DNA of 42,975 nucleotides. Origin: a virus. The notes below the pieces were generated by a model. That model saw nothing but the letters and a program-made list of their open reading frames with translations, was not told where the DNA came from and did not search any database. Each line of letters starts with the position of its first letter. Position 1 is the first letter of the stretch. Location: positions 1-42,975 of the IMG/VR virus record IMGVR_UViG_3300042568_000704. One strand, given 5' to 3'. Made by a program: the position numbers and the translations under genes. This document shows positions 1,150 through 36,109 of this stretch, piece after piece.

Positions 1150-2304
1150 TTATTTTTGAACTGTACGATTTAGAACATCAGAATAAAGTCTGATAAATGG
1201 ATCATTGATCATTTCTTGATCATTTCCATCCTCAACTTCAATTGTTGTTTCTTCTGTTAAATATTTATTATTAACTTGATTTTTGACTTTATTTTCGCTG
1301 ATTTTATTTGTCTTGGTGACATTTTCAACGAGAGTTTTGATCTTATCTGCAAAATCTTCTTCGGAATTAAACTCAATGTTTTCTGCAAGTTTTGCAACCT
1401 TATCAGATTGTACATCTGTTAGATGCTTGGTTTGTTCCATGAAAATACCGACAGCCTTCATTGCTTTATTTTCATTTACAAGAGTTACATTGCGCTGAAG
1501 TTCAGTGTTTACCTTTTCTTCAAGTTCACTGATTGTTTCTGCCATTTCATCAAACAAGTTTGTCTTGTTTTGAGGAACTTCGATGTAAGATTCAACAAAA
1601 AGATCCTTAAGTTTACCGATAAAGTTCTCTGCAATTTCGGTACGAATACCATTTTCGATTGCGAGTTTATTTTCGGTCATCCATTGATCTACAACATAGT
1701 TAAGATAAGAATCTACTTTTTCGGTGAGTTCTTGTTTTACTTCTTCGACTTCTTGTTCAAATGCTGCTTCATATTGTTCATGTACTTCACGAACAACTTC
1801 TTCTGCTTTAGCAAGAACAGCTGCTTCGTAAAGAGATCCTGCTTTGTTGATGAATTCTTCGGAAAGATCGGAAGAACCAAAGATTGCCATAATGTCTTGA
1901 CGAACTTGTTCTTCGCTCATCTTTGTCATTCCGCCGCCTGTTGCAAATGATGGTTTCATTGCAACAGATGCTTGATTCTGTGGTGCAGTTTCAGAATATT
2001 GCATTGTTCCTAATTGAACACCACCACCATGAGCGTCTTGTTCGCCGCCACCATGAGCATCACGAACTAATCCACCTTTAGCACCACCACCACTAAAGGA
2101 TGCTGGTTTCATTGCGACTGAATTAGATGATGCTGCTCCATTTTGGGATTGAGCTTGTTTTGGTGCTGGAGAATTATTATTCTCTTCACCTTCGTCGTTT
2201 TCTTCTTCGTCGTTTTCTTCTTCATTCTCATATGCTTCGGAGAGTTCAATCTCTTCATCCATAAGGGAATCAATTAATTTTTTTGCTGCTTGAACGGGAT
2301 CCAT
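1150..2304 (-). CDS. gp22: Prohead core scaffolding protein, T4 gp22-like
   Basis: This is the probable main scaffold of the prohead core, around which gp23 assembles and which is then degraded by gp21. It has 384 residues against about 269 in T4. Layout: N-terminal helix (1-25) ending in L21-S22-E23, a possible gp21 cleavage site; a very acidic stretch (24-42, mostly E, D, N); a Gly/Ala/Ser-rich low-complexity part (43-128) with duplicated elements; then a long charged, coiled-coil-like helical region (130-384). The ribosome binding site TAAGGAGAT lies just before the ATG. Assignment rests on position between gp21 and gp23, acidic helical composition and length, since scaffold sequences diverge fast. 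The low-complexity insert accounts for most of the extra length. Confidence 0.88.
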   Translation of the reverse strand: MDPVQAAKKLIDSLMDEEIELSEAYENEEENDEEENDEGEENNNSPAPKQAQSQNGAASSNSVAMKPASFSGGGAKGGLVRDAHGGGEQDAHGGGVQLGTMQYSETAPQNQASVAMKPSFATGGGMTKMSEEQVRQDIMAIFGSSDLSEEFINKAGSLYEAAVLAKAEEVVREVHEQYEAAFEQEVEEVKQELTEKVDSYLNYVVDQWMTENKLAIENGIRTEIAENFIGKLKDLFVESYIEVPQNKTNLFDEMAETISELEEKVNTELQRNVTLVNENKAMKAVGIFMEQTKHLTDVQSDKVAKLAENIEFNSEEDFADKIKTLVENVTKTNKISENKVKNQVNNKYLTEETTIEVEDGNDQEMINDPFIRLYSDVLNRTVQK

Positions 2305-2340: not shown

Positions 2341-2985
2341 TTATAATTTCGAAAGGAAAGACTTAAATACTTTTAGGTATTGTTCTTCTAATTTTTTAGA
2401 AGGTGTTTTCTTAATATCTTTACGCCATTTTTCTAATTCTTTTTCTTTTAATATACCGTTTTCCCAGATCCATTGTTTACCTTCCATTATACCATTTACA
2501 AAAGCATTTGGCGCAGATGGATCAGCAACGATATCAACAGCAGCAAGCATAAAATCTTCCTGCACCATGTTGACTCCGTTTATTTGCTTTAAAGAACCCA
2601 TTCCTCTGGAAGAAACACCAAGTTTAACTCCAGAATCAATGAGGTTTTCTACAATCTTTCCATAAGGAGTGCCGAGAATCTTTGCCTTTCCTACAACATC
2701 ATTTCCATTTTCTTTTAAATTAGTAATGATGTGAGAAACGCGCTCAAGATTTACGGTTGGACCTTCTGGGTGTCCTAACTCTCCTAATGCTCTGTTTTCT
2801 CTGATATATGATTGGTTGTAACGAGCAACTTCGTTGATAAGAATATCTCTTGGGTATATTCTTCCATTTTTGTTTTGTTGCTCTGCTTGCATGAATACAC
2901 CTTCGATAAAAAGGTTCTTTTTACCTTCTTTTTCTTCGGATAATACACGCAGCGGGTTATCAATAGTCTCTGTGATTAAATACAT
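2341..2985 (-). CDS. gp21: Prohead maturation protease, T4 gp21-like
   Basis: This serine protease (MEROPS S77 type) cleaves scaffold and capsid proteins during head maturation. It has 214 residues, matching the 212 of T4 gp21. Conserved landmarks are NGRIYPRDIL (40-49), GELGHP (68-73) with the likely catalytic H72, GVSSRGMG (123-130) with the likely nucleophile S125 or S126, and DIVADPSAP (151-159), which contains the acidic residues expected near the active site. A charged Lys-rich tail (about 178-214) follows the fold. The ATG at 2985 lies 9 bases after the stop of the gp67-like peptide and has an AAGGG element. Its position directly before gp22 and gp23 is the T4 arrangement. Which serine is the nucleophile is from memory of the family. 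Confidence 0.95.
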   Translation of the reverse strand: MYLITETIDNPLRVLSEEKEGKKNLFIEGVFMQAEQQNKNGRIYPRDILINEVARYNQSYIRENRALGELGHPEGPTVNLERVSHIITNLKENGNDVVGKAKILGTPYGKIVENLIDSGVKLGVSSRGMGSLKQINGVNMVQEDFMLAAVDIVADPSAPNAFVNGIMEGKQWIWENGILKEKELEKWRKDIKKTPSKKLEEQYLKVFKSFLSKL

Positions 2986-2994
2986 GGAAATCCC

Positions 2995-3168
2995 TTATTG
3001 TGATTGTTGTTCTTCGCATTCTTCACAGGGTTCTTCATCATATAAAGTCATTGCCATTTCTGTCTTTTTATCTTGTAGTTTTTCTTTTATTTTATTAAAT
3101 AATGCAGAATGAATTTCTTTTCTAAATTCATCCGAATCGTCTTTTAATAGTGAATCAATTATTGACAT
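2995..3168 (-). CDS. Small prohead core protein, T4 gp67/gp68-like by position
   Basis: This short gene encodes 57 residues, from ATG at 3168 to TAA at 2995-2997. It begins MSIIDSLLKDD, has a basic helical middle (FNKIKEKLQDKK) and ends in an acidic Glu-rich tail with a CEEC motif. In T4 the small prohead core proteins gp67 and gp68 lie between portal gene 20 and protease gene 21, and gp67 has a similar charged helix plus acidic tail. Here the peptide sits immediately before gp21. It has a good AAGGAG ribosome binding site 9 bases before the ATG and a perfect late promoter upstream, so it is very likely expressed. Assignment to gp67 is by position and composition; the CEEC end is unusual and unexplained. 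Confidence 0.75.
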   Translation of the reverse strand: MSIIDSLLKDDSDEFRKEIHSALFNKIKEKLQDKKTEMAMTLYDEEPCEECEEQQSQ

Positions 3169-3192: not shown

Positions 3193-3200
3193 TATTTATA
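3193..3200 (-). promoter_or_regulatory. T4-type late promoter before gp67-like/gp21/gp22
   Basis: An exact TATAAATA on the minus strand lies 25 bases upstream of the gp67-like ATG and just after the stop of the 875-residue cysteine-rich gene. It would drive the core, protease and scaffold genes. The downstream leader reads AACAAGGAGTTTTTGTT, in which AACAA and TTGTT could pair and leave GGAG in the loop. Confidence 0.78.
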
Positions 3201-3218
3201 AGATTTATTCTTATATTA

Positions 3219-5846
3219 TTATATACAATCCGCAGGATCTGGTCCAGTGATACCATTTGGTAAAGGACATGCAGCATTGACGCATCCAGAACCCTGACAG
3301 CAATCTGCCTGACAGTTGTTTCCGCCGTTACTACTGCAACCGACTATTGGTATACCAGAATCTACATTTCCATTTAAATTACCACCACCAGAAGGATTTA
3401 CAGATTGTCCGCAGCATCCGCATGGATCTACAACCAAATCATTAGATGCTTGAGAACCATCACTATTTTTACAATTATTTTCAATAGTTTTAAATACCAA
3501 TCTATCTTTTAGTTGAGTTTCACTACAATCACCACTGCATGATTCAAATTCTCTTTGTTCTATTGTTGGTACACTGCAACCATAAAGCGCGGTAATACTA
3601 ACACCACCACATCTTTGTTCTACAGTATCGGCAAATGGACCTGCTATATTTGCAAGATAGCAATCTGATGGTGGTAAATCACCACACAAACAATCTCTAA
3701 GAGATGATTTATTATCGGGTCTTTGCAAACATTCAGCACAGTTTGAAACTTCTATGTAATTAACTAAATTATAATAAAAATTATCTTGATTTGTTGGTTC
3801 AAATGGTCCTCCTCCTGTTATGGGAAAACCAGTATAACCAGAATTATTGTAAGTATGAACAGGTGTATTATTAAATGTTAAATTACAATCTTTTAAATAT
3901 GCTGGTAAATAATGACTTCTTGCACACGGATCATCTAATAAATCTTGAATGTCATCAAATCCTGTGCAGTTTTCTAAAGAATTTGTAATTGTTGCGGTTT
4001 CAGTATCAGGATCATAAACTAAAATAGAAGTACATCCAGTAACACATGCAGGATTTGCTATAGCAAAAATATCTTTACAACTATTCATGCATTGATCTGG
4101 TATTTGAAAATCTACTTTATTTCTTCCATCAATTGCACCTAATGATATTCCTTCTGTATTACCAGACCACCATATGGTGGTAATTGAATTATTATTTGTA
4201 AAAAGATTTGGATTATCTACAGGATTATTTGGATCTGTACAATCACAATTTCTGCATGGTGCATATCCATAAGTTTGAGGTCTTCCTAAACCACCAGATG
4301 AAATAGAATTGCAAGAGCATAAACTATTTGGGCATTTTGATGAGCATGAAGCACCACATGAAGAATAACCAGGCGTACTCAATGTAATTACCCCTACTCC
4401 TTCTGGAGCAATATTTGAGCAAGTACAATTACATGGATATGATTCTACAAATATAACAGATTGAACTTGAGTTTGATCATTCGGACACTGGCATTTATTA
4501 AGCAATGATCCAATTGGTGGTATTATTGCTGGAAAATTTTCATACTGTTGGTTTCCAATTGGAATAGAAACTTCTTGATTTCCATAACTCCAATTCCATT
4601 GATTTTCCCAGAAAGATGTGTTGTTTACAACATAACCACCAGAACCATTTGGTGTTACCGTTGGTGGATTTGCAGGACCTATAGCAAAATAACCACTATT
4701 TCCAGCAGCAGAATAACCACCGTGTTCCGAATCAAAATTTCCGTTAGTGGTATTATTTACATATTGACATGGTGCATTTACTACTTCATCGGTACATGTT
4801 ACACAATCTGAATATTGTCCAGTGGCAGTTGCTGGAAATTCTCTAGCACCGCATGTTCCACCTATTGCATCGCCAGGTGCTTTTTCGCCATCAAATGCAC
4901 CACAAAAAGAACCACCAGAAGAGGAAAAAGATAAAGTTCCAGAAAAAGAACTAGGAGTTGATAAATTATTAAATCCTGCAAAACTTATGTAATACGGATT
5001 TGCTCCGTTATCTGTATCCGTATCATATGGTAAGGAAGAGTCCCATTCTATAAAATTATCATATTCGGAACAACCACTATTTTCGCGTGGATATTTTTGC
5101 AAACAGGACTTCGGAAACCCTGTATAAACTGATGAATTTTCGGCACTGCAAAAATATTGAGCAGTAGATGGATTATTTGGAGTTCCAGGCGAAGTGGATC
5201 CAGATGCAATAGATAAAAAACTTCCAGCATCTATGATGGCATCACCTTCATCCGTAGTCAATCCTAGTAGTGGGAACGATGTAGAATTTTGTGGTAATAT
5301 TCCAGCTGCATTGATTGATCCTGCTGGATATATCATAACATTATTTCCGCCTATACTTCCAGATCCATAACCAAAGTTAGTTCCAGTTACAGGAAATGCT
5401 CCAACTATAGAACCAGTATCGCATCCAACTGCAACAACCCATCCACCACCAACTATATTGGAATAATAAGTATTTGCTTGCAGTCCAACCCAATATCCAG
5501 AACCATAACCCGCAGTATTTGCAGGAAGATAACCATCCACACATCCTCTTGGTCCTACTGGGGGTGGACAAACTGCACAAACACAAGGATCACTTGAAAC
5601 ATCAAAGCAATCGGTTGGAGGGGGAGGGGGATCTACTATTCCACATACACTATTTGGTGGATTTGCATTTAGTTTGGAACAACTAAAACAAGTTCCTTGT
5701 AACTTATTATTATAAGTAGCATCTCTATGCAGAACCGTAGTATCAGCGGCTTCTGCTGCATCTGTAAGTAATAAAGTAACTTTGTTTTTACTAGTTACTC
5801 TAGCACTTCGTTTTGATTCTGCTTTGATTGCTATTAAAAAATCCAT
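3219..5846 (-). CDS. Large cysteine-rich protein of unknown function (875 residues)
   Basis: I do not recognise this protein. It has about 57 cysteines (around 6.5%), many in CxC, CxxC and CC pairs (for example near residues 53-56, 88-93 and the NCTC and CGCC clusters), together with Gly, Ser, Asn, Pro and aromatic-rich stretches and a PPPPPT run at 73-78. A DGYLPAN element at 104-110 recurs in the other cysteine-rich protein of the window. The N-terminus (1-45) is basic and lacks cysteine, with no clear signal peptide or membrane helix. The ATG overlaps the stop of the 182-residue gene (TAATG), so translation is coupled. It lies inside the head-assembly cluster between portal and protease, where T4 has nothing. 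I infer a virion surface or decoration protein; metal binding or disulphides are alternatives that the sequence cannot decide. Confidence 0.85.
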   Translation of the reverse strand: MDFLIAIKAESKRSARVTSKNKVTLLLTDAAEAADTTVLHRDATYNNKLQGTCFSCSKLNANPPNSVCGIVDPPPPPTDCFDVSSDPCVCAVCPPPVGPRGCVDGYLPANTAGYGSGYWVGLQANTYYSNIVGGGWVVAVGCDTGSIVGAFPVTGTNFGYGSGSIGGNNVMIYPAGSINAAGILPQNSTSFPLLGLTTDEGDAIIDAGSFLSIASGSTSPGTPNNPSTAQYFCSAENSSVYTGFPKSCLQKYPRENSGCSEYDNFIEWDSSLPYDTDTDNGANPYYISFAGFNNLSTPSSFSGTLSFSSSGGSFCGAFDGEKAPGDAIGGTCGAREFPATATGQYSDCVTCTDEVVNAPCQYVNNTTNGNFDSEHGGYSAAGNSGYFAIGPANPPTVTPNGSGGYVVNNTSFWENQWNWSYGNQEVSIPIGNQQYENFPAIIPPIGSLLNKCQCPNDQTQVQSVIFVESYPCNCTCSNIAPEGVGVITLSTPGYSSCGASCSSKCPNSLCSCNSISSGGLGRPQTYGYAPCRNCDCTDPNNPVDNPNLFTNNNSITTIWWSGNTEGISLGAIDGRNKVDFQIPDQCMNSCKDIFAIANPACVTGCTSILVYDPDTETATITNSLENCTGFDDIQDLLDDPCARSHYLPAYLKDCNLTFNNTPVHTYNNSGYTGFPITGGGPFEPTNQDNFYYNLVNYIEVSNCAECLQRPDNKSSLRDCLCGDLPPSDCYLANIAGPFADTVEQRCGGVSITALYGCSVPTIEQREFESCSGDCSETQLKDRLVFKTIENNCKNSDGSQASNDLVVDPCGCCGQSVNPSGGGNLNGNVDSGIPIVGCSSNGGNNCQADCCQGSGCVNAACPLPNGITGPDPADCI

Positions 5847-6394
5847 TACTTTGTAATATTTGGGGTTATTATAAATCTACCTTGAACAATACGATAGACT
5901 ACTTTTTTTGGATGATCTATTCTGTCTTGTGCATATACAATTTCAACATCATATAGTGGTTTACCATATTCAATACCTTCCATATGTACAGCATCTATTG
6001 TAATAATTACATTTGGATCTGTTTGCGTACTTCCACCATCACCGAGTTTGATATCTATTGGAAAAAAATCTTCACCGTAACCAGAAACACCAAAAAGTGC
6101 TAAATTTTCTGCGGTGTTTGTAGCGTCTATTGGTGGTGCAATTGGTAATACTGTACCATCTACACTATTTCTTACTTGCATACGAACATAAACATTTGCA
6201 ATACTTTCAGGATTTCCATCAGAATTTGTTATAATAAATCTATCTTCAAATCCTTCTGGTAATTCATCTAATGGTACTTTACCATCGGAATTACCAGCAA
6301 GATTCAATGCTTTTCCTTCTTTATTAGCAACTGTTAGGTATAACCTAAAAGTTGCACCCTGCTCTGCTTGAATATCATAATAAGCTGCTGACAT
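5846..6394 (-). CDS. Small predicted beta-sandwich virion protein (182 residues)
   Basis: This protein has no firm name. It begins MSAAYYDIQAEQGATFRLYL and ends with VVYRIVQGRFIITPNIT, alternating hydrophobic strands typical of the small N-terminal beta-sandwich attachment domains of phage structural proteins (BppU-N-like from memory). I chose the ATG at 6394 rather than the GTG at 6415 because GGAGGAG lies 9 bases before it; the start then overlaps the end of the portal gene by 20 bases. Its stop overlaps the start of the 875-residue cysteine-rich gene (TAATG). The pair is thus embedded and translationally coupled downstream of gp20. I infer that it is a partner or adaptor for the cysteine-rich protein. 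Confidence 0.82.
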   Translation of the reverse strand: MSAAYYDIQAEQGATFRLYLTVANKEGKALNLAGNSDGKVPLDELPEGFEDRFIITNSDGNPESIANVYVRMQVRNSVDGTVLPIAPPIDATNTAENLALFGVSGYGEDFFPIDIKLGDGGSTQTDPNVIITIDAVHMEGIEYGKPLYDVEIVYAQDRIDHPKKVVYRIVQGRFIITPNITK

Positions 6395-8018
6395 TATATG
6401 CTGCTCCTCCGCCACCTTGTGCTGGTGGTTGTGGTAATTCTGATCCTACTGCGGGTGGTGCGCCACCATTTGCTACTTGCATTTGCTGTGCATCCAGATT
6501 CATTGCAAGTTGTTGTTGTTCTATACGCTCTTTATTTATTTCATCTTGCATAGAGTCTGCTTCTTGCTCTGTCATTTGTAGAATTGTCTTACGAATCCAT
6601 TTTTCAGAGAAGAATTTACCAGAGAAGTCACCGACATCTCTTAATATAGAAAGTCTTTCTTTTAACATTTCTATATTTTTAGATTCTGTAAAATATGAAT
6701 CGGATACAAAGTCAAAACGAATTTGTTGCGACATTGCATCCCATTCTTCGTGATTTACTATTCCTTTTGCTATTAATTGAACTCTTAATAAATTCAAAAA
6801 TAACTCAGCAAATTTCATACGAAGTCTGGATACAAATTTAGCAAACTTTAATTCATCTCTACTAATTTCAGAAGCACGACCCATATTAAAACCATTGTCT
6901 GCTTCCATACGAGAAGTTGGTATGCTCAATGCGCTGTAAAGTTTCTTTTGGAAATACTTTACATCTTCCATCTCACCGAGATTTTGACCGCCAGGAAGGG
7001 TTTCAATTGATGTACCTTTTCCACCTTCACGACGAGGCAACCAGTAATCTTCCAACATGTGCATCATGCGTCTATCATCGCGCACTTCACCTGTTGCAGC
7101 ATCGTATGTTACCTTATTGCGGTAACGATTCATAATTTCACGAAGATATTGCTCTGCTTTATTCTTTGGAAGAGAACCAACATCAATATAGAATATGCGG
7201 CGTTCTGGTGCGCGAGAGATGCGATAAATTACAACAGCATCTTCAATCATACGCAATTGATTTAATGGTTTAATTGCTTTTTGCAAATAACCATAAACTC
7301 GTTTGCTATTTCTTTCAAGTAAACCAGAATGTACATAACTTACCGAATCCGCAGTTAAGCGTATACCTGTAGTATTTCCGTATGTTATTATTGGTGTGTT
7401 TGGACTTGGATTAATAAACTTATCAAAGTTAGAATAAATGTAATATTCTTTAACAGATTCAATTGTTTGTACTTTTGTTATTTGATCTGTTTTCTTTTTA
7501 ATTTCTGTAATCTTTTTAATTTTTAAAGGATCTATTTGAATAACTTTTTGTATTCCTGCTTTTGTATCCTTTTCATCTAAAACCGCATAATGATACATTC
7601 TTCCATCTATGTACCATTGACGAAATAGTTCATATCCTTTTTTATTAAAATTTAGTAGGTGTAATAGTGTGTTAAACTCTCCTACTATTTTCTTTTTTGT
7701 TCCAGAAGATACATCTTCTACTGCGTCTAAATCTATTTTAACTATTTCACCTTCGACATCTTCTGTAATTGCTTCATTAACTATATCATCAATAGCAATT
7801 TCAACTTCAGCATGACCACTTATTTCACGGTATTTACGAATTAAATCAATATCTGAACGAAGATTTGTATCTAAGTCAATAGCATAACTTTGCGCGGCCC
7901 CACCAGCTTCTATGATGGTGGAACCGTCCGCAAAGTCTGCCTCTGGGGTTACGGGTATGTTCTTGAGAGTTTCATCTTCCTTTTTTGGAAAAAGAAACCC
8001 GAAAAATTTAATTGCCAT
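6375..8018 (-). CDS. gp20: Portal vertex protein, T4 gp20-like
   Basis: This forms the dodecameric portal at the head vertex through which gp17 packages DNA and to which the neck attaches. It has 547 residues, near the 524 of T4 gp20. Recognisable portal blocks include SDIDLIRKYREISGHAEVE, DDIVNEAI, RAPERRIFYIDVGSLPKNKAE, MLEDYWLPRREGGKGT and SALSIPTSRM, all characteristic of the gp20 family. The C-terminus is a Gln/Pro/Gly-rich tail (about 495-547). I prefer the ATG at 8018, with TTGGAG 9 bases upstream, over the in-frame TTG at 8030. The gene precedes an inserted pair of unknown genes and then the prohead core genes. Confidence 0.97.
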   Translation of the reverse strand: MAIKFFGFLFPKKEDETLKNIPVTPEADFADGSTIIEAGGAAQSYAIDLDTNLRSDIDLIRKYREISGHAEVEIAIDDIVNEAITEDVEGEIVKIDLDAVEDVSSGTKKKIVGEFNTLLHLLNFNKKGYELFRQWYIDGRMYHYAVLDEKDTKAGIQKVIQIDPLKIKKITEIKKKTDQITKVQTIESVKEYYIYSNFDKFINPSPNTPIITYGNTTGIRLTADSVSYVHSGLLERNSKRVYGYLQKAIKPLNQLRMIEDAVVIYRISRAPERRIFYIDVGSLPKNKAEQYLREIMNRYRNKVTYDAATGEVRDDRRMMHMLEDYWLPRREGGKGTSIETLPGGQNLGEMEDVKYFQKKLYSALSIPTSRMEADNGFNMGRASEISRDELKFAKFVSRLRMKFAELFLNLLRVQLIAKGIVNHEEWDAMSQQIRFDFVSDSYFTESKNIEMLKERLSILRDVGDFSGKFFSEKWIRKTILQMTEQEADSMQDEINKERIEQQQLAMNLDAQQMQVANGGAPPAVGSELPQPPAQGGGGAAYNVSSLL

Positions 8019-8072
8019 TATAAACTCCAAGTAATATGTTTACTTGAATATGTATGCGTCACGAACGAATGA

Positions 8073-15699: not shown

Positions 15700-17796
15700 T
15701 TAAATTATTTCACATAAACAATTTGTAGCCTGTGTAATTTGTATTTCAGTTTGATTAAACAAATTCATCATATCGGTATACCTAACAGAATTTGTATTTC
15801 CACTTGTAGTTGTTCCTGTAATCGTTCCATTGGTAAAATTATAATTGTCCGTATAAATTGCTGTGTTATTGGTGCTTCCATCGTCAAAATTTGTTGAAAT
15901 TGCAGTTGCTGCTGCTGCTGTATCAATATACCAACCAACTTTATCATTAATACTGGGAATTCTACCATAACGATATGATTTTAGTTTATTTATTCCAAAA
16001 GGAGCCGCTGGTGCAAAATTGCTATTTAAACCATTTGCAAACCAACTTCTAAATGGTTGATTAACTAATCCAGTTCTGTCTGTAAGTGGATACAATCCTA
16101 TGTATTCAATACTAACACAACAATTCATCTGACCTGGAATTATAGGTACTCCAGTATTTATGCAAGCTTGACAATTATTATCGCCTGGATTTCTAACTTC
16201 AATAACAACTTGATGAGTTTGTGATAACCCTCCAGAAGTCAATGGCATAGGAAATTCAAACAATCCCCAACGAGAAGTCATTGTTTCAGTTGCGGGAGGT
16301 CCTGCCAATATTGTTGTTCCTACATTATTATAATCTGGAGATGAGGGATCTTGTGTGTTAAGTGGTAGACCAAGAACAATTCCACATGCTTTTTTTCTTC
16401 CACTCATTAATAATGTTAATTCTTTTAATAAATTATTATTATCATATTGATTATTTACCCATAAATTTAATCGTTTTTTATAAAATTTTATATACCTTCC
16501 ACGCAAGTCTATATTAGTTCCAGTAGTAGGATCTGTAAAATTAGGTATATTTACATAAAATGGAGTAAATATTTTTGTATACCATGCTGATGGACATCTT
16601 CCAAAATTATCTAAACATGGAGAAGTACCAGTTATCACGCCGCACCCATTGACGGGATCATTGCATTGCTGTGGATCACATCCTGCCATACTTAAAAATG
16701 AAAAATCTGTAAATTTTGGCAATGAATCTGCCATTGCAGAAACATTAACAAATGAACTATTATTTTCCTCTCCTTTTTCATAATTAAAAAGGTATTGTGG
16801 AAGTTTACCTACCAATCGTTTATTGTAAAATGCACTGGGACTATCATCACCCGATGGTGAAGTTCTAGGTAATCCATAACAACTACCTACACTACATGTG
16901 TAACTATTTGGATAAGATTCGCAATCATCCGAAGTACAACCAGTATCAATTAAAGGATAAACATTTGTCTGTTGTATAAAATCAGAAGGTGATAAGCAAT
17001 CAGGACCTGCTTCACCAGTTTGATTTATTTGTACACCAGTTACATAACATGTAGTTGCAGAACATGTACATATTGGTTGAGTTGTGGGATTTGGAGTAAT
17101 TGGTTCACAACCAGTGGCACTATCACATGGACAAATTGTACTAAAAGAATTACATAAACTATTATTTAAGTAATATGTTCCAGATTGAACTCCATGTCTA
17201 GTATCAAATATTGTATTGTTAGTTTGTGGAAATATTGGTATATTGGTTTGAGTGTGCCAAGCAGCAGCAGATTTTGTGTTTTTACTATTAATAAAAAATA
17301 CAAATCTATCTGCAATTGTAAATGTCGTAAGTTCTGCTAGTACATAAGAAGGTGGTGGTGGAATGGGAGGTGGTGATTCCACAAAATCGTAAATTCTAGC
17401 ATAAAACGGAGATTCTACTTCAGGAACTCCACTATATTCTGGATCCGCTAATTCGTGTATTAAATTTAAATTTACAGTTTGACCTGTATTTTGCCATACC
17501 GAACAGTTCCATCTGGGTGATGCAGGAACTGTATTTGCTGGATAGTGTACAAAAGTACCAACATTACATGGTAAATAACCATCACATGGACCGCCTGGTT
17601 GTGTTGGATTTTCGGTTGCAGTTGGAATTTGCCAAACTAGTTCAGCAGAAGTAGAACCCGCTGTTGTTTTTGCATAAAGTGAAGTAATATTTGTAGGCGG
17701 TACTAATGGATTATCTTTTACTTTTAAATTACCTATAACTTCGGGTATTGTTGTAATGTTTAAGCCTGATGTTTTTATTTTTACTTCTTTAGCCAT
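15700..17796 (-). CDS. Cysteine-rich protein of unknown function (698 residues)
   Basis: I do not recognise this protein. It has about 27 cysteines (about 4%), concentrated at 215-310, 370-395 and in a CLC motif near the end. It carries CDGYLPCN at 71-78, which matches the DGYLPAN of the 875-residue protein, and a proline run (PPPIPPPPS, near 140-150). The first 65 residues lack cysteine and look like beta-strands, possibly an attachment domain. Residues about 395-580 are lower in cysteine and resemble a beta-sandwich. An exact late promoter box lies 38 bases upstream inside the end of the fibre-like gene, so it can be expressed separately. Context between fibre and neck genes suggests a virion appendage; no catalytic motif was seen. 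Confidence 0.85.
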   Translation of the reverse strand: MAKEVKIKTSGLNITTIPEVIGNLKVKDNPLVPPTNITSLYAKTTAGSTSAELVWQIPTATENPTQPGGPCDGYLPCNVGTFVHYPANTVPASPRWNCSVWQNTGQTVNLNLIHELADPEYSGVPEVESPFYARIYDFVESPPPIPPPPSYVLAELTTFTIADRFVFFINSKNTKSAAAWHTQTNIPIFPQTNNTIFDTRHGVQSGTYYLNNSLCNSFSTICPCDSATGCEPITPNPTTQPICTCSATTCYVTGVQINQTGEAGPDCLSPSDFIQQTNVYPLIDTGCTSDDCESYPNSYTCSVGSCYGLPRTSPSGDDSPSAFYNKRLVGKLPQYLFNYEKGEENNSSFVNVSAMADSLPKFTDFSFLSMAGCDPQQCNDPVNGCGVITGTSPCLDNFGRCPSAWYTKIFTPFYVNIPNFTDPTTGTNIDLRGRYIKFYKKRLNLWVNNQYDNNNLLKELTLLMSGRKKACGIVLGLPLNTQDPSSPDYNNVGTTILAGPPATETMTSRWGLFEFPMPLTSGGLSQTHQVVIEVRNPGDNNCQACINTGVPIIPGQMNCCVSIEYIGLYPLTDRTGLVNQPFRSWFANGLNSNFAPAAPFGINKLKSYRYGRIPSINDKVGWYIDTAAAATAISTNFDDGSTNNTAIYTDNYNFTNGTITGTTTSGNTNSVRYTDMMNLFNQTEIQITQATNCLCEII

Positions 17797-35827: not shown

Positions 35828-36109
35828 TTAATTTATAAAAACATTAGGAGAACCATTAAATGCGGTATCTCCACATGTAATAGGATCTCCTGATCTGTGT
35901 ATCGGACGATTGTTTACAAACACATTTGATGTACTTGTTGCATTACCAGAGTGACACGATGAACCGCAGCAGTGTGTTGGATAAAAATCACCAACTCTGG
36001 TTGCTGGTATTTTATTAATAAAAACATTATTGCTGCCAGTTACACAAGGTCTAGGTGTATAACAATGACCTGTAGATTTATCTACGCCTTTTCTTATTGC
36101 TCTTCTCAT
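35828..36109 (-). CDS. PAAR-repeat spike tip protein
   Basis: PAAR proteins cap the sharp end of the spike in contractile tails and type VI secretion (T4 gp5.4). It has 93 residues with repeating motifs SNNVFINKIPATRVGDFYPTH, SNVFVNNRPIHRSGD and GSPNVFIN, the hallmark of the PAAR pyramid. Candidate zinc ligands are H15, H46, H71 and C79, which fits the usual three-His/one-Cys site; extra cysteines (C16, C22, C47, C48, C52) are unusual. The start overlaps the stop of the spike C-terminal gene by four bases (ATGA), and gp25 follows. Genetic linkage to the split spike supports a direct assembly partner. Confidence 0.95.
   Translation of the reverse strand: MRRAIRKGVDKSTGHCYTPRPCVTGSNNVFINKIPATRVGDFYPTHCCGSSCHSGNATSTSNVFVNNRPIHRSGDPITCGDTAFNGSPNVFIN

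Follow-up and report, generated by a model that had tools for sequence, protein, structure and literature searches.

Large, cysteine-dense proteins encoded beside the portal gene of an uncultured T4-like virus lineage: an orphan family of putative surface proteins

The window analyzed in this work is a stretch of 42,975 nucleotides, positions 1 to 42,975 of the IMG/VR virus record IMGVR_UViG_3300042568_000704. It has the T4-like order gp17-gp18-gp19-gp20-gp21-gp22, and the genes are transcribed in the order gp16-like, gp17, gp18, gp19, gp20, P3, the gene for a cysteine-rich protein, a 57-aa ORF, gp21 and gp22. Terminase, tube, portal, protease and scaffold were assigned by profile match, and the sheath by its position together with a tblastn match to the part of S-CAM3 that carries the tail sheath annotation. 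The features of the region are listed in Table 1. The start of P3 was set at the conserved ATG at position 6394; the ORF list gives 5846-6415, starting from a GTG. The initial annotation had located the cysteine-rich gene between portal and prohead core genes, and it does lie between gp20 and gp21, although P3 and the 57-aa ORF intervene. In the cyanophages S-CAM3 and S-ShM2 a single small ORF separates gp20 and gp21. Homologues of the 57-aa ORF were present in all five loci examined, and its position is what points to a prohead core protein of the gp67/68 type.

Table 1. Features of the portal-gp22 region and the second cysteine-rich gene (window coordinates)
Feature	Position	Strand	Remarks
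gp22 scaffold	1150..2304	minus	PF25623, 2.3e-61
gp21 prohead protease	2341..2985	minus	PF03420, 9.4e-38
57-aa ORF (MSIIDSLLKDDSDEFRKEIHSALFNKIKEKL...)	2995..3168	minus	position of a small prohead core protein of gp67/68 type
T4 late-promoter-like octamer TATAAATA	3193..3200	minus	directly past the stop of the cysteine-rich gene
Cysteine-rich protein gene	3219..5846	minus	875 aa, 57 Cys; founding member of a new family
TAATG stop/start overlap, P3/cysteine-rich gene	5844..5848	minus	P3 stop is TAA
P3	5849..6394	minus	182 aa, no Cys; PHROG 1084 family; likely adaptor
Portal gp20	6375..8030	minus	Pfam Portal_T4, 6.5e-171; 3′ end overlaps P3 start
Second cysteine-rich protein	15700..17796	minus	698 aa, 27 Cys; adjoins a fibre-like 1082-aa gene

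Cysteine makes up 6.51% of the 875-aa protein (57/875), in agreement with the initial annotation, which had also described the CxC, CxxC and CC clusters (8, 5 and 2 instances, respectively, plus 6 Cx3C). The plus strand across the gene is packed with stop codons. The 24 other proteins of the window, a background count that excludes the second cysteine-rich protein, contain 62 cysteines in 11,980 residues (0.52%), and the excess over them corresponds to a binomial P of ~1e-42. Shuffling the bases of the coding sequence (n = 2000) produced a mean of 27 cysteines and a maximum of 44. The cysteine enrichment is real and specific. The remaining composition is dominated by 94 Gly, 89 Ser, 83 Asn, 67 Pro and 63 Thr, with only 33 Lys plus Arg and 4 His. 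The N-terminus begins MDFLIAIKAESKRSARV, and no signal peptide was seen on inspection. A chance ORF or a frameshift artefact was ruled out because the gene is conserved as a protein across independent contigs.

The coupling to the preceding gene noted in the initial annotation was also found: the P3 stop codon and the ATG of the cysteine-rich gene overlap in a TAATG, and an overlap of this type is present in six of seven homologous loci. No obvious Shine-Dalgarno sequence was seen in the 27 bases upstream of the start. Since portal and P3 overlap as well, the portal, P3 and the cysteine-rich protein are probably translated from one message. Of five homologous loci, four also carry the octamer TATAAATA past the stop of the cysteine-rich gene, which may mean that transcription begins afresh for the prohead core genes. 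Within the window the frequency of the octamer is not above chance by plain count; it is the conserved position that suggests a function. This arrangement has to be considered together with the proposal that the cysteine-rich protein is a fast-evolving, non-structural or assembly-only accessory located beside the portal by chance, acting for example in host takeover or in metal or thiol scavenging. An octamer that divides the gene from the prohead core genes fits this proposal, as does the absence of homologues from proteomically studied phages. However, the reading frames overlap with portal and P3 inside a structural block, the conserved partner belongs to a family of fibre-adaptor type (see below), and 875 aa is, from general knowledge, large for a takeover protein. 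We therefore regard a non-structural role as quite unlikely.

The initial annotation had proposed a search of viral metagenomes, which recovered relatives in the same slot. Five further full-length homologues (L004, L006, L007/L090, L008 and L009) and five partial ones (L001, L005, L087, L088 and L089) were found on viral metagenome contigs, that of L007/L090 on a contig of 57 kb. The slot is identical in the homologous loci (portal, P3, cysteine-rich protein, 57-aa ORF, gp21), and P3 directly precedes the cysteine-rich gene wherever a locus spans this part. Two more pattern scans gave the same contigs; thus, in the collection searched, the family seems to be restricted to this lineage. A tblastn search of ~50,700 phage records with two family members as queries identified no homologue, and the protein had no match in Pfam, PHROGs or PDB sequences. 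Four lax PHROG matches of single members (best E 0.074) were taken as chance. Bacterial and archaeal genomes had no match to the family alignment and none to the portal, so they gave no clue to the host. The nearest isolate relatives of the portal are from cyanophages (~48% identity), those of gp21 share ~60% identity, and the lineage has no isolate in the phage collection searched. These proteins are a real, conserved orphan family in an uncultured lineage of T4-like bacterial viruses.

Of the 57 cysteines, 46 do not vary among the six full-length members, compared to 139 of the 818 other residues (17%; Fisher P 1.7e-23). The other full-length members share 42-50% identity with the protein of the window, while in the same pairs the flanking portal and gp21 share 84-99% and 85-97%, respectively. 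In the comparison with L008, nucleotide identity is ~91-97% in the portal gene, drops through P3, is ~50-67% in the cysteine-rich gene and recovers at gp21 (94-96%). The corresponding dN and dS values are 0.007 and 0.30 for the portal, 0.17 and 0.75 for P3, 0.49 and 1.36 for the cysteine-rich gene, and 0.015 and 0.29 for gp21. As dS is also raised (1.36 vs 0.30), this pattern suggests allele exchange as well as rapid evolution of the resident gene. In the closest pair, with L001, dN at an equal dS of ~0.16 is 0.056 in the C-terminus of the cysteine-rich protein and 0.002 in gp21. The N-terminus of the protein is strongly conserved. Fixed cysteines in a diversifying sequence are the pattern that a disulphide-locked, exposed protein would leave, with the cysteines keeping the scaffold. 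The role as a surface or decoration protein, put forward in the initial annotation, gains indirect support from the fast divergence between conserved flanks, the coupled fibre-adaptor-like gene and the extracellular-type composition. Fast evolution is also seen in non-structural proteins, which counts against this reading.

The invariance of the cysteines supports the view that they are structural, as the initial annotation implied in proposing either disulphides or metal sites. However, binding of zinc or another metal would fix cysteines too. In a multi-metal-binding protein, the CxC, CxxC and Cx3C clusters would coordinate zinc or another metal under the reducing conditions of the cytoplasm, and the particle protein would be folded with no disulphide. 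The many closely spaced and mostly conserved cysteines fit such a protein, as do its synthesis in the cytoplasm with no signal peptide and the PAAR-type metal sites known from phage tips; all-cysteine sites would be compatible with the low His content, the composition and the missing Pfam match. Nonetheless, family members have only 3-6 His, the neutral-polar, Lys/Arg-poor composition is of an extracellular type, and no metal-binding Pfam family was matched. Because the protein has 4 His, low charge, abundant Ser, Thr, Asn, Gly and Pro and no match to a metal-binding family, disulphides are favored over metal, and we consider the metal-binding alternative unlikely. Cysteine is entirely absent from P3, the portal, gp21 and gp22. 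Therefore, the cysteines cannot cross-link to these neighbors and most likely pair within the chain or between copies of the same protein. Co-variation of cysteines at three column pairs of alignment A2 (105/232, 612/670 and 967/978) was no more than suggestive (P = 0.07). An AlphaFold model of the protein, built from eight sequences, reached a pLDDT of 32 and contained no usable fold.

The P3 protein matches PHROG 1084 (E 1e-12 in the window), as do all eight P3 members; the window version had no match in Pfam. In S-CAM3, the gene for the PHROG 1084 member lies among those for baseplate and tail fibres; the protein matches PHROG 3304, ‘L-shaped tail fiber protein assembly’ (4e-23), and gave values of 0.0036 for LtfC and 0.13 for BppU_N in Pfam, both under the cut-offs. 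The AlphaFold model of P3 is a beta-sandwich with a moderate pLDDT of 63. The best viral Foldseek matches of this model (5.7e-6 to ~1e-3) are ~110-aa phage proteins, tail proteins and one BppU_N-domain protein, from Sinorhizobium phage phiM12, and its fold matches in the PDB are mostly Ig domains. With moderate confidence, P3 is predicted to have an Ig-like beta-sandwich fold. These matches link it, indirectly, to the LtfC/BppU-type beta-sandwich adaptors that anchor fibres. In DT57C, the LtfC ring holds the N-terminus of the fibre by strand addition/donation (PMC10713586). P3 resembles the LtfC (T5/DT57C) and BppU_N adaptors in that it is small and beta-sandwich-like, with a gene immediately ahead of that for a large putative surface protein. 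Unlike them, its gene lies by the portal and not in a tail-tip cluster, and its partner is not recognizably related to LtfA. One P3 homologue (L108:3633-4100) has a Pro- and Cys-bearing loop, CFPANIILGPPPPVAGETDSPNIDC, inserted in the variable region. A second PHROG 1084 protein is encoded near a 1640-aa fibre-like gene in L097 (G001:22423-22818, minus strand); the lineage therefore encodes at least two putative adaptors of the P3 type.

The cysteine density had been described as very unusual. This holds for the portal-gp21 slot, but disulphide-linked virions, as in Milano, and other cysteine-dense phage proteins are already known. The structural proteins of the Agrobacterium phage Milano average 2.1-2.4% cysteine particle-wide, with interchain bonds (PMC10491603, PMC10811340). 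Both cases involve cysteine-enriched proteins of contractile-tailed phages, here a putative virion protein, but the 6.5% found here is in one protein and its gene neighbors have none. By analogy, the cysteine-rich protein could be a cement or collar whose interchain disulphides tie head, neck and tail together, given that most cysteines of the Milano structural proteins are bonded, many of them across subunits (PMC10491603, PMC10811340). Heterotypic links of this kind would be impossible or few in the window, where the proteins named above as cysteine-free are joined by tube, sheath and terminase with <1% cysteine, and where cysteine is concentrated in the two cysteine-rich proteins. We consider a cement very unlikely, and a disulphide network of the Milano type reaching P3, portal, gp21 and gp22 was ruled out since these lack cysteine.

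The tandem Gly/Cys-rich proteins of S-CAM3 (L106:25942-27843), with 36/329 and 35/302 cysteines (~11%), belong to PHROG 4205, are annotated as hypothetical and have relatives in S-CAM1. They are likewise very cysteine-dense and found in T4-like phages, but they are of the Gly_rich_2 type and encoded in the fibre cluster instead of at the portal side. Kinship with them was rejected (hhalign probability 0.3%, no PHROG or Pfam match). High cysteine density thus has precedents among T4-like phages, which lessens, without removing, the surprise of the family described here. Decoration proteins of the Hoc type (T4 Hoc, T5 pb10, N4 gp17) would be comparable as accessory capsid ornaments that bind the host or other surfaces. 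The cysteine content and size of the cysteine-rich protein differ from theirs, and no Ig-like domains or relatives of this type were found for it in Pfam, PHROG or PDB sequences.

Taken together, the most likely interpretation is an adaptor plus a disulphide-stabilized, fast-evolving surface protein. We assign a probability of about one half to the proposal that P3 and the cysteine-rich protein form a virion-surface module, of adaptor and adhesin or decoration, with the disulphides inside the cysteine-rich chain; we infer the adaptor role, the virion location, the disulphides and the adhesion. In this module P3 would dock on the particle, where its gene position suggests the side of the head or neck, and would hold the conserved N-terminus of the cysteine-rich protein as LtfC holds the fibre. 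The remainder could be a series of small domains, stabilized by at least ~20 disulphides within the chain (or between copies of the protein), whose rapidly changing surface is turned towards the environment or the host. The protein would be made reduced in the cytoplasm, with no signal peptide, and oxidized on or after release. The evidence suggests that the particle exterior bears a rugged protein that evolves rapidly and serves in attachment or decoration. A bolder version, which we consider improbable, is that the adhesin, rugged, hypervariable and mounted on head or neck, has at least 20 disulphides that form only by oxidation outside the cell, so that it is lysis that activates it. To our knowledge, such a redox-timed attachment device has not been described for T4-like phages.

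With these findings, the T4-like structural gene block gains an orphan family whose members are large and extremely rich in cysteine, in a lineage without isolates. While cysteine density itself has precedents, the family, its size, its place at the portal side and its partnership with P3 are new. If the protein is disulphide-locked and on the surface, it bears directly on how a phage can acquire numerous disulphides with no secretion step, and it identifies a slot on the portal side for the insertion of fast-changing surface modules. The gene is a ready marker of diversification for this uncultured T4-like lineage.

Other contigs vary in the same region. The related T4-like contigs L052, L070, L076, L078 and L109-L111 encode, in the portal-gp21 slot, one to three small proteins that seem to be rich in beta structure, and they give the impression that this slot serves generally for the insertion of surface proteins. 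In another T4-like contig (L020:1370-5384), portal and gp21 are separated by unrelated genes (419 and 686 aa) spanning ~4 kb. The second cysteine-rich gene of the window sits elsewhere, between the fibre-like gene and neck-type genes. Its product belongs to no known family, was not found in the 57-kb contig G001, and was rejected by comparison as a homologue of the 875-aa protein. One relative was found (L099/L002), which is 88% identical and keeps 27 of 27 cysteines. The window also encodes, at 35828-36109 on the minus strand, a PAAR-motif spike-tip protein of 93 aa with 6 cysteines.
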